The position numbers and the translations under genes were made by a program. A stretch of 64,000 bases of DNA from Natronolimnobius baerhuensis (lineage in GTDB: Archaea; Halobacteriota; Halobacteria; Halobacteriales; Natrialbaceae): contig NZ_MWPH01000003.1 of NCBI RefSeq assembly GCF_002177135.1, forward strand, positions 248,001 through 312,000, written 5' to 3'. Under the pieces are notes generated by a model. That model made no database searches. It saw only the letters and a list, made by a program, of their open reading frames with translations, and was not told the origin of the DNA. The stretch's first letter is position 1. Each line of letters begins with the position of its first letter. Positions 4,757 through 8,992 of this stretch are shown piece after piece.

Positions 4757-4849
4757 TCCCAAAACCGGGGGACAACCTCGAGTTCCAACACTCATGTTGA
4801 TATGATGATACAGCGATACGATTATGTGTCAGTTACAATGATTATGGGT

Positions 4850-5386
4850 ATGACCAGTCGTCGCCCCGACGAGTCCTCGTGGCGCAGGTGGCACGCACTC
4901 GTCGAACACTATACGCCGGATGGTGCCCTCGGGCGGTGGCTTCTTGGCTCGCTGAGTAGCTTTTTTGGCCTCTGGCTGCTCGCGATCTTCGGTGCCGAAG
5001 TGATCTACTGGGGGCTGTCGCTTGCCATGCTGTTCTGGACGACGGTGTTACTCGGCGTCGGCATTCCCATGGTCCTCGTGGGACTGCTCACACTCTGGCC
5101 GCTGTACCTCTCGCTCATCGGCAACCTCGAGTCGGCGGCCGACTACTCCGTTCCGGGGATGGACCGGGCGAATCCGCCGGTCGAAACGCCACAGCGCGAT
5201 CCGTCCGCGAAGGACGACGTCGATGCGACGGACCCGTTCGCTGATCTCAAGCGCCAGTACGCAGCCGGTGACCTCTCCGAAGACGAGTTTGAACGCCGAC
5301 TGGATGCTCGCCTCGACGAGGTCGATTCATCAACTCGAGGGGCCGACGACAACACGACTCGAGACCGACTTCAAGATCACAACTGA
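4850..5386 (+). CDS. SHOCT-domain membrane protein
   Basis: About 178 residues. A short N-terminal basic part is followed by two strong membrane helices (about residues 28-52 and 58-85), an acidic linker, and a C-terminal SHOCT-type motif (DPFADLKRQYAAGDLSEDEFERRLDARL). SHOCT modules are short oligomerisation elements found on many haloarchaeal membrane proteins; no function is known. In-frame ATGs exist at 4802, 4838, 4844 and 4850. I chose 4850 because TATA-like DNA (around 4815-4826) lies at the right distance for a leaderless start; 4844 is nearly as good. Confidence 0.75.
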   Translation: MTSRRPDESSWRRWHALVEHYTPDGALGRWLLGSLSSFFGLWLLAIFGAEVIYWGLSLAMLFWTTVLLGVGIPMVLVGLLTLWPLYLSLIGNLESAADYSVPGMDRANPPVETPQRDPSAKDDVDATDPFADLKRQYAAGDLSEDEFERRLDARLDEVDSSTRGADDNTTRDRLQDHN

Positions 5387-5436
5387 CACTTAGCCGCTCG
5401 AAGAAAGCCTAAATACTCACCGTGCAAACGATTGAC

Positions 5437-5610
5437 TTGCACCGAAAGGTGCGGTATGTGAGAGTGCGATCCCTACCACAACCACCCTCTCACATACGTG
5501 CTTCCACCTGGAAGCGACTGGGTGTTGTCACCCACTCTCCTAAACGATAGTGGCTGCTTAGTCATGCATTCGGCCGTGGGAGGCGTTCACGACGATGGCC
5601 GTCGTTTTCT
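5437..5610 (+). ncRNA. Candidate free-standing structured RNA (~174 nt)
   Basis: No convincing ORF lies between 5387 and 5679. The plus strand instead has four hairpins in a row: GCACC-GAAA-GGTGC (5439-5452, a GNRA tetraloop, extendable by two wobble pairs), an 11-bp perfect stem GTATGTGAGAG/CTCTCACATAC (5454-5464 with 5487-5497), GCTTCC/GGAAGC (5500-5515), and TGGGTG/CACCCA (5519-5534). A TATA-like CCTAAATAC (about 5409-5417) sits ~25 bases before the first stem. The block ends in ACGACG/CGTCGT (5589-5605) followed by TTTCTT, which looks like a terminator. The next gene at 5680 has its own TATA-like region, so this is probably not its leader. Class unknown; it is not recognisable as SRP RNA, RNase P RNA or tRNA. 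Confidence 0.55.
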
Positions 5611-5679
5611 TATCGACTCTCTGACTCGAGTATCGACTGGAACCGGTTGACTTACTAATTAGTTACGGTATTTTACACT

Positions 5680-6513
5680 ATGAACCGCCGGGATCTTTTC
5701 GCGATAGCTGGGTCAGGGGTTACGATTCCAGTTGTCGGATGTCTACAACGTGGGTCCTCAAATACTGACGTACTCACCCCGTCACCGTCGATTGATACAG
5801 AAGCGCCGGCGGACTGCGGTCCCGCAGCACTGTCGCTCTCCGAGCGACTCGGCGACAATCCGGGCGACGAGGGGCCGTGTCCTGAGGACGCGAAGCCGGC
5901 GATTGCCGTGGAAAACGAACGGGACGAAGACGTCACGGTCTCCGTGGATATCGACCACGACGATGCGCTGACGGAGTCGTACGCGCTCGATTCGGGCGAA
6001 CGGGTCCTCGAGCGGCAGGCGTTTCAGTCGGTCGAATCGGGCTGGTTTGGGTCGACGGAGCTGCGGGCGACTATCCAGATCGAGAACGAACCGGATCGAG
6101 AGGTCGTCTGGCCTGACCGGTCGTGTTACAGACACGCCATCGCAATCGTTCCCGATGGCCTCGAGATCGGATGGATCGAACCGCTGGACGGGGTCGGTGA
6201 CATCGATCACGACTGTTATACGGGTGATACCGTGTCGTTCCGGCTCGAATCCCTCGGAGAGGTCCGAACGGTGTCGGTCACGATTGTCGACGTCTGTGCC
6301 GAAACGGAAACGACTGAAACGGTCGACGCGGGTGCGTACGAAGAAGGCGTTTGGCTATCCGACGTGCTCACGAACGGCGGCGTCTACGAAATCACGGTGT
6401 CCGTCGAGAACGGGCCGACGGAAACGTACGCGTTTGACGCGGAGTGTGGCGGACTAAACGCCGTGATCGACGAGGACGGTGACCTCGACGTGTTTCCAAT
6501 CCCGATGGAATAG
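5680..6513 (+). CDS. Tat-type lipoprotein of unknown function
   Basis: 277 residues. The N-terminus MNRRDLF with a hydrophobic stretch and a lipobox VVGC (Cys21) marks a twin-arginine lipoprotein exported folded and anchored outside the cell. The mature part is very acidic and beta-rich, with paired cysteines around residues 46 and 67, 147, 178, 206 and 258 and repeats of ETVSFRLESLGE-type strands, resembling the Ig-like domains of haloarchaeal surface proteins. No catalytic motif is visible. The ATG at 5680 is preceded by an AT-rich promoter-like region (TTACTAATTAGTTACGG), consistent with a leaderless transcript. It lies between the candidate ncRNA and the convergent helicase gene. Confidence 0.8.
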   Translation: MNRRDLFAIAGSGVTIPVVGCLQRGSSNTDVLTPSPSIDTEAPADCGPAALSLSERLGDNPGDEGPCPEDAKPAIAVENERDEDVTVSVDIDHDDALTESYALDSGERVLERQAFQSVESGWFGSTELRATIQIENEPDREVVWPDRSCYRHAIAIVPDGLEIGWIEPLDGVGDIDHDCYTGDTVSFRLESLGEVRTVSVTIVDVCAETETTETVDAGAYEEGVWLSDVLTNGGVYEITVSVENGPTETYAFDAECGGLNAVIDEDGDLDVFPIPME

Positions 6514-6589
6514 CCGTTCATGAATCCGAGTTCATTGGTACTCGGTCGAAAAGATCAGTTCCGTCCCGAACGCGGTCGACTCGTCCAGT

Positions 6590-8992
6590 TTACGAGGACG
6601 GCGACCTCGACTGATCCGACTCGAGTGTCGACCGAAACCGGTCCAGTCCCATCTCGAGCATGTCCGGACTCACGGTCTGGAACTCGCCGTCGTCGGGCAG
6701 ATACGGACGCACAGAATCCCAGCTTTCGCGTGCGTAGCGTTCGTCGAGCAGGACACGCACGCCGACATCCTCCGGACTGCGAATCACGCGACCGATTGCC
6801 TGGCGGGCCTTGCGAACGGCGGGGATCGTCAGCGCGTAGGTAAAGCCGTCGCCGAACTCGTCGTCGTAGGCCCGCCGAACCGCCTTCGTGCGCGGGCTCG
6901 CGGTGTTGACGAGTGGAACGCCACAGACGACCGCGGCGGAGAGGCGGTCGCCGCTGTAGTCGACGCCCTCCGTGAGTGTCCCTCGCAAACTCGTCACGAG
7001 CACTTTCCCCTCGCCCGCGAAGAACTCGCTTTTGAGCGACTCCGTCGCCTCGTCGTCGCTCGAGGCGTCGAGCAAGATCGGTTTCGAGAGGTGGTCCTCG
7101 AGTGCGCCGGCGATCCACTTTGCTTCCGAATAGCTTGGCATGCCGACGAGGACGTTCCCCGGCAGGCGGCCGATCTTCGCGACCGCGTTGGCGTAGTGGG
7201 TTCGGGTTCGATTCTCGTCGCCCGGCTGCCCCCGATTATCGTAGGTAAACTTCGGTGCGGCGACGGCGAAGCTCTCGCGGTTTTCCGCGGGAAAGTGCAG
7301 CCCGTAGCGACGTTCGACGACCGGGCGGTCGTCCTCGCGTGCAAGGTACTCGAGCCCGGTCACCTCGGTGAAGGCGTCCATCGGCTCGAGGGTGGCGCTC
7401 ATCAGGACGCCGCCGCCGAACGAGGCGAGGCGCTCGCCGATGGCATCGCTCGGGACGCAGTTGTGCAAGGCGAGACGGGCGTTGTAGGCGCGACGCCACG
7501 AGTCGCCGGGTTCGGTGTCGTCCCAGGTACGCTCGAGTTCGATTTCGCGGAAGTACTCGGTGTGATCGCAGCGATACCATTCGCCGAGGACGCGGCCCGC
7601 GGCGGGGGCGGCGCGCGTCCGATCTTCGTCTTCGGCTTCGTTGAGAATGCGGGCGACGACGGCGCCGACGGATTCGGCGCGAACCCACTCGGCGTCGCTG
7701 TAGCCCTCGGATCTCGCCCACTCGGTCAACTCGTCTTCGGCCGGCTGAGACGGGTCTCGGAGCGGAATTTCGTCGTCCGAGAGGTCGGTGAGGTCCGACT
7801 GCCACCCCCTGTGTTTCCGGTCGAGATGGGCAGTGACACGCCGGTCGAGTTCGATACGAAGATCCTCGACGAACTCGAGGGTGCGATTGAGTTCTTCGTA
7901 GGTGACGTCGCTGTCGTTCAGTTCGGCGCGTACGAGGTCGGCGTCGGCGGTTTTCGAGCCGCCCTGGGCCTGGCGGCCCTCGCGTTCGAATTTGATCGGC
8001 TGGAGCACGCGGGAAATCTCGGTGGCGGCGTCTCGCAGCGTCCGGTCGCCGACGCCCTCGCTGACCAGATCGCGCACGCGTGGCTCGAGCATGTGGGCTT
8101 CATCGCAGACGACGAACGTCGAGTCGTCGAGTAGGGCTCCCGTAAACGTGCCCGTCGTGCGCGGATCGAAGGCGTGGTAGTAGTTGCCGACGACGACCTC
8201 GGCGTGGCCGAGCACCGCGCCCATCACCGAGTGCGGGCAGGTGCCGTGGGCGACCGAGCGCGCGACGAGGTCATCGGGCGTGATCATCCCCGCTTCGGTG
8301 AAGTCGTACGGAACGGCTTCGCTCGCATCGCCGTCGCTGTCTTCCTCCGGAAGGTCCTCGAGGTACTGCGCGTAGAACGGGCAGTACTCGGTTTCGGCCC
8401 CGACGGGGCCGCCTTCGCCGTACTCGGGCAGATCGCGCGGATAGGGCGAGGGCTCGCCGGCGCTCTCGAGATAGGTTGCATTGCCCCCGCCTTGATTTCC
8501 ACTGTCGGCGAGGCCGATCTGCTGGCTGCGGGCGCGTGCGGCGAGATTCTGAGCGGTCGTCTCGCCGGCTTCGCCGGTCAGATCGCGGGTCCGGTCCCGC
8601 AGCGTCTCACAGCGGTCGTAGACGTTCCCGTCGTCGAACCCTGCTGCACGTTCGCGGTTGTACGGACAGACGTCCGCCTTGCCGACCAGCGTGAGCCCCG
8701 AGACGGGGTTCCAGTCGTCGGGCAGATTCGCGTTGATCGTCTCTAAGTCTTCTTCGAACTGGCGCAGTTGCTGTTTGACGCTCGTGAGCACGAGCACGCG
8801 CTCGTAGTCGGTGTCTGGATCGCGCACGAGGTCGATCCCCGCAGTGAGTGCGATCATCGTCTTGCCCGTGCCGCAGGCTCCCTCGATGACCGTATAGCCG
8901 CCGTCTCGAGCGGTCTCGATGGCGGTTTCGATGCCGTCGACTTGCGGGTCGTACGGCTGGGGGTGGCCGAAGATCGAGCGCCAGTCCGTCAT
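6590..8992 (-). CDS. Rad3/XPD-like (DEAD_2) ATP-dependent DNA helicase
   Basis: 800 residues of superfamily 2 helicase. Walker A GACGTGKT is at 38-45, motif II DEAH near 297, and motif VI QAIGRVIRSPED near the C-terminus. Four cysteines between motifs Ia and II (in VCPYN, DRCET, EYCPFY and GTCPHS) match the 4Fe-4S cluster ligands of XPD/Rad3/DinG enzymes, which unwind DNA 5' to 3'. An extra acidic insertion lies in the Fe-S/arch region. The ATG at 8992 gives MTDWRSIFGHPQPYDPQ, which leads directly into the Q-like motif. A second, clearly different member of the family is encoded at 37413-39569. Probable role: repair or recombination; the exact substrate is not known. Confidence 0.9.
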   Translation of the reverse strand: MTDWRSIFGHPQPYDPQVDGIETAIETARDGGYTVIEGACGTGKTMIALTAGIDLVRDPDTDYERVLVLTSVKQQLRQFEEDLETINANLPDDWNPVSGLTLVGKADVCPYNRERAAGFDDGNVYDRCETLRDRTRDLTGEAGETTAQNLAARARSQQIGLADSGNQGGGNATYLESAGEPSPYPRDLPEYGEGGPVGAETEYCPFYAQYLEDLPEEDSDGDASEAVPYDFTEAGMITPDDLVARSVAHGTCPHSVMGAVLGHAEVVVGNYYHAFDPRTTGTFTGALLDDSTFVVCDEAHMLEPRVRDLVSEGVGDRTLRDAATEISRVLQPIKFEREGRQAQGGSKTADADLVRAELNDSDVTYEELNRTLEFVEDLRIELDRRVTAHLDRKHRGWQSDLTDLSDDEIPLRDPSQPAEDELTEWARSEGYSDAEWVRAESVGAVVARILNEAEDEDRTRAAPAAGRVLGEWYRCDHTEYFREIELERTWDDTEPGDSWRRAYNARLALHNCVPSDAIGERLASFGGGVLMSATLEPMDAFTEVTGLEYLAREDDRPVVERRYGLHFPAENRESFAVAAPKFTYDNRGQPGDENRTRTHYANAVAKIGRLPGNVLVGMPSYSEAKWIAGALEDHLSKPILLDASSDDEATESLKSEFFAGEGKVLVTSLRGTLTEGVDYSGDRLSAAVVCGVPLVNTASPRTKAVRRAYDDEFGDGFTYALTIPAVRKARQAIGRVIRSPEDVGVRVLLDERYARESWDSVRPYLPDDGEFQTVSPDMLEMGLDRFRSTLESDQSRSPSS

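Follow-up and report, generated by a model that had tools for sequence, protein, structure and literature searches.

A candidate free-standing structured RNA of haloarchaea with relatives at the head of small zinc-ribbon operons

The locus examined here lies in a window of 64,000 nucleotides from contig NZ_MWPH01000003.1 (positions 248,001 to 312,000 of the forward strand) of Natronolimnobius baerhuensis (GCF_002177135.1), a member of the Natrialbaceae. An intergenic region between a gene for a SHOCT-domain membrane protein and a lipoprotein-like gene on the same strand contains a TATA-like box followed by successive hairpins (Table 1). The only ORF of 50 amino acids or more inside this region runs past the end of the conserved RNA. 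Positions 5437-5610 fold at -68.8 kcal/mol, far better than dinucleotide shuffles (z = -3.5, with 0 of 200 shuffles as stable), and positions 5437-5574 give z = -4.2. The reverse strand folds equally well, as any inverted-repeat array would. The + strand is therefore assigned by the upstream box, the GNRA loops and the covariance model hits described below.

Table 1. Features of the locus, in window coordinates.
Position	Strand	Feature	Conservation
4802-5386	+	SHOCT-domain membrane protein gene
5409-5415	+	TATA-like box CTAAATA, 28 nt upstream of H1	conserved in the sister genome
5437-5571	+	conserved structured RNA (type I member)	homology to the sister genome ends at 5571
5438-5453	+	H1, 6-bp hairpin UGCACC-GAAA-GGUGCG with GAAA (GNRA-type) tetraloop	type I members
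5454-5497	+	H2, 11-bp perfect stem (5454-5464 / 5487-5497) with 22-nt loop (5465-5486) containing CCCUACC	type I members
5498-5650		50-aa GTG ORF
5500-5515	+	H3, hairpin GCUUCC-ACCU-GGAAGC	almost invariant in sequence
5519-5534	+	H4, hairpin UGGGUG-UUGU-CACCCA	specific to the genus; weakened in the sister genome
5540-5549	+	unpaired segment CUAAACGAUA	A106-A108 invariant in 13 aligned members, T105 and G110 nearly so
5550-5565	+	H5, weak hairpin GUGGCU-GCUU-AGUCAU	G-U to G-C change in the sister genome keeps the pair; not conserved further
5572-6620		segment with the 277-aa lipoprotein-like gene	absent from the sister genome
5589-5612	+	terminator-like hairpin plus T-rich tail (hairpin plus T-run at 5589-5605)	only in this genome
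5680-6513	+	lipoprotein-like gene, starting 109 nt downstream of the RNA

In the only other genome of the genus (G096, the sister genome), the RNA is found at the same place after the SHOCT gene, with 126 of 134 aligned bases identical (94%). By comparison, identity is 82% for the spacer, 82-89% for the two upstream genes and 92% for the end of a helicase gene downstream. Three of the differences fall in paired positions and six in unpaired ones, too few to test. Beyond the end of the homology, the RNA of G096 abuts the 3' end of the convergent helicase gene, while in the window the segment with the lipoprotein-like gene intervenes. The left edge of this segment (5620-5650) resembles the helicase 3'-end sequence at ~6615-6645, suggesting an insertion with a short duplication. 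Though the terminator-like hairpin would be expected only 0.1 times by chance, it lies within this segment and is therefore not part of the conserved unit, leaving the 3' end of the RNA unresolved.

Sequence search alone misses the wider family, as BLASTn with the RNA recovered only the sister species and one short match of 32 bases. A covariance model built from the two sequences, however, found full-length distant hits in other Natrialbaceae at E-values of 4e-10 to 1e-5. A model rebuilt from 12 of these sequences found 21 convincing copies in 17 genomes, with E-values down to 4e-22, all in the same family, and a named Natrialbaceae MAG adds one more. These members are referred to as type I. 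In a pattern scan of named genomes, two Natrarchaeobius chitinivorans strains and this MAG are members, while the other hits look like chance, being nearly all in bacteria, and one hit in Thermoplasmata was not recovered by the model. Two further model hits (L047 and L054) lie in what reads as coding sequence and were rejected. Among viral contigs, the type I pattern gave one hit, which was not recovered by the model. The window's genome has one copy, and the model hit L204 there (E = 0.015) is not convincing.

Over 22 aligned members, 12 pairs of the three-helix structure are changed on both sides, in comparison to 6.7 +/- 1.3 in shuffles. There are 37 such cells (12.6 +/- 2.8 in shuffles), and the covariation score is 0.239 (0.133 +/- 0.012). 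None of 500 shuffles reached any of these values, and every slid register is worse. In H2, 8 of 9 modelled pairs show changes on both sides, while H1 accounts for 3 such pairs. H1 is paired in 94.7% of cells and H3 in 99.2%. H2 is paired in only 64% of cells on the covariance model alignment because its arms vary in length, but most H2 regions fold on their own better than shuffles (mean z = -3.6). Conservation of sequence is seen in H1, H3, the H2 loop CCACCUACC, of which the window carries the CCCUACC variant, and a 3' UAAA-GAU segment. In addition, a YTAARTR box with at least 6 of 7 matches is found at -25 to -28 in 13 of 20 members, versus 2.5% of background windows.

Type I members lie beside different genes in different lineages, with no neighbor in common, and the downstream gene is convergent in most of the loci examined. 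Orthologues of the upstream SHOCT gene in other genera have no RNA beside them, so the RNA is not tied to that gene. Together with the upstream box at a constant distance, this recurrence at unrelated loci supports a gene of its own rather than a leader of the next gene. The preliminary description, which proposed a free-standing structured RNA of unrecognized class with four hairpins, a promoter and a T-rich terminator, is thus supported in its main claim, and its own criterion of compensatory changes in related genomes was satisfied. The terminator and the fourth hairpin are not supported as features of the family, and the conserved unit ends near 5571 rather than 5610.

Following weak model hits (L050 and L096) led to a second, better conserved branch, referred to as type II. 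A covariance model of this branch, searched against 392 genomes, gave 46 genomes with a match at E<=0.01, most of them strong Natrialbaceae hits with up to nine scored copies per genome, and convincing members in three other haloarchaeal families. The type II pattern gave no hit among viral contigs. Type II RNAs are preceded by a conserved palindromic box TATCCTAACGTTCTTTAGGATA and almost always lie ~80-130 nt upstream of a zinc-ribbon microprotein ORF on the same strand (about 59 amino acids, ending RGP in most), usually followed by a HalOD1 ORF (PF18545, 45.5 bits). In one genome (locus L073), three such units, each with zinc-ribbon and HalOD1 ORFs, occur within about 7 kb. Shorter zinc ribbons follow the RNA in four loci (L194, L196, L197 and L202), and another (L198) shows neither ORF convincingly. 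At locus L271, the upstream RNA of a zinc-ribbon relative was not found, and the upstream sequence folds into strong hairpins and may carry an inserted element. Two of the RNA units, L194 in G096 and L195 in a second genus, are nearly identical, only a few bases apart within the 205 bases compared, suggesting recent horizontal transfer. No zinc-ribbon ORF lies beside type I loci. In the genomes with type I alone that were searched, including that of the window, no convincing zinc-ribbon relative turned up beside an RNA, so type I must work without it and this protein cannot be the general partner.

The models of the two branches detect each other at the exact sites and strand. The type II model finds 8 type I loci at E<0.01 and a ninth at E=0.1, plus locus L092, while the 12-sequence type I model finds all 20 type II loci plus both L050 copies and L092, the weakest at E 0.2-2, with one off-target hit in each list. 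As these E-values are for ~69 kb chosen to contain the RNAs, the argument rests on position and on the near absence of off-target hits, not on E alone. The branches share architecture and short motifs rather than long sequence identity. Their common core comprises H1 (mostly GNRA-capped), H2 with its strongly covarying stem and conserved C-rich loop (CCACCUACC or similar), and H3 ending GGAAGC/GGGAGC, followed by the UAAA-GAU segment. It is likely that both branches belong to one superfamily.

Within type II, the whole H2 hairpin occurs in both orientations among paralogues. Of 33 copies examined from five multi-copy genomes, 9 (L160, L162, L163, L170, L171, L180, L185, L187 and L189) carry the H2 loop as the reverse complement of the others, and such copies are present in all five genomes. 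For example, in one genome (G044) L161 carries GCCTCCAAGC and L160/L162 carry GCTTGGAGGC, and the loop of L162 matches the reverse complement of that of L161 at 20 of 21 bases. The persistence of both orientations means either that the loop is tolerant or that complementary loops are used.

No Rfam 15 family matches the RNA. There was no match in the window, none up to E=5 for positions 5300-5750, and for eight related loci only sub-threshold matches away from the RNAs. No tRNA or tmRNA was found, the plasmid database gave no match, and neither the C box RUGAUGA nor the D box CUGA was recognized by eye on the member alignment, where the conserved unpaired segments are CCACCUACC and CUAAACGAUA. 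Among the papers searched, which did not extend to subscription literature, none describes this RNA. What appears to be new is the RNA class, rather than a demonstrated mechanism.

In combination, these observations make it very likely that positions 5437-5571 belong to a real structured RNA class and, in the absence of expression data, likely that the RNA is made as a free-standing transcript from its own archaeal promoter. More tentatively, the RNA may work in trans as a ribonucleoprotein, in which the sequence-conserved H1 and H3 hairpins, the H2 loop and the UAAA-GAU segment form a docking surface for a haloarchaeal protein, not yet identified, that the RNA titrates or guides. In type II loci, the same RNA at the head of the operon would couple it to the microprotein/HalOD1 output. 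Taken as a whole, this explanation is held with moderate confidence. A more speculative and improbable reading is that these regulatory RNAs form RNPs with tiny zinc-ribbon/HalOD1 signalling proteins, with orphan copies such as this one acting in trans. In the operon copies, flipping of H2 between paralogues would allow specific RNA-RNA pairing within one cell, as an RNA-based identity or switching code.

Among the alternatives, an antisense-type sRNA is possible but doubtful. The conserved, exposed C-rich H2 loop could pair with G-rich sites in mRNAs, or loops of paralogous RNAs could kiss each other, as complementary loops coexist in one cell in type II. However, the window's genome has a single copy and no complementary partner RNA, sites complementary to the loop (<=2 mismatches) are fewer there than for the reversed control pattern (3+3 against 6+7), and H1 and H3 are conserved in sequence beyond the need for pairing. 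A cis-acting leader or riboswitch, suggested by the same-strand genes downstream of the window RNA and of type II, is unlikely given the differing and mostly convergent genes that follow type I, and the gene downstream in the window lies in DNA missing from the sister. Similarly unlikely is a non-functional relic of a type II operon or mobile unit that lost its protein genes. Type II is multi-copy and dispersed, the near-identity of L194 and L195 indicates that these units move, and type I has no partner genes, but a relic would not be conserved better than its flanks, keep its stems by compensatory change or keep its promoter box. An RNA antitoxin of type III toxin-antitoxin logic, with type I as orphan antitoxins, is suggested by the structured RNA immediately upstream of one or two tiny ORFs in type II and by its multi-copy, patchy distribution, but is improbable because type III antitoxin RNAs tend to be tandem repeats with an endoribonuclease partner, whereas here there is one unit, the type II partners are a zinc ribbon and HalOD1, and type I has no protein gene beside it in common.

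Few structured RNA classes are known in haloarchaea beyond the universal ones. Haloferax sRNA132 is likewise a free-standing intergenic haloarchaeal sRNA with its own basal promoter between unrelated genes (PMC6560208). Homologues of sRNA132 are reported only in Haloferax, with two stems joined by a pyrimidine-rich linker, and judging from this description, without direct alignment of the sequences, it does not share the GNRA-H1/H2/H3/UAAA core. The type II branch links RNA to stand-alone HalOD1 proteins, a domain with over 2,000 copies, up to 49 per genome, and no known function, which is proposed to belong to haloarchaeal signal transduction (PMC5847659). No RNA partner is mentioned in the parts of that work consulted, and the 24 HalOD1 genes of the window's own genome are preceded neither by this RNA nor by the zinc-ribbon ORF. 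The type II HalOD1 has a sub-threshold match to the DdfA shape factor family, and a signalling role for type II is plausible but unproved. Lastly, replication template switching between stem arms is a proposed route to inverted loops (PMC8794818), and the orientation-flipping H2 hairpin is a natural data set for this mode of RNA stem evolution. The inversions described there also occur between identical stem arms but mostly concern four-nucleotide rRNA loops, while those of type II H2 concern ~20-nt loops in paralogues within one genome.
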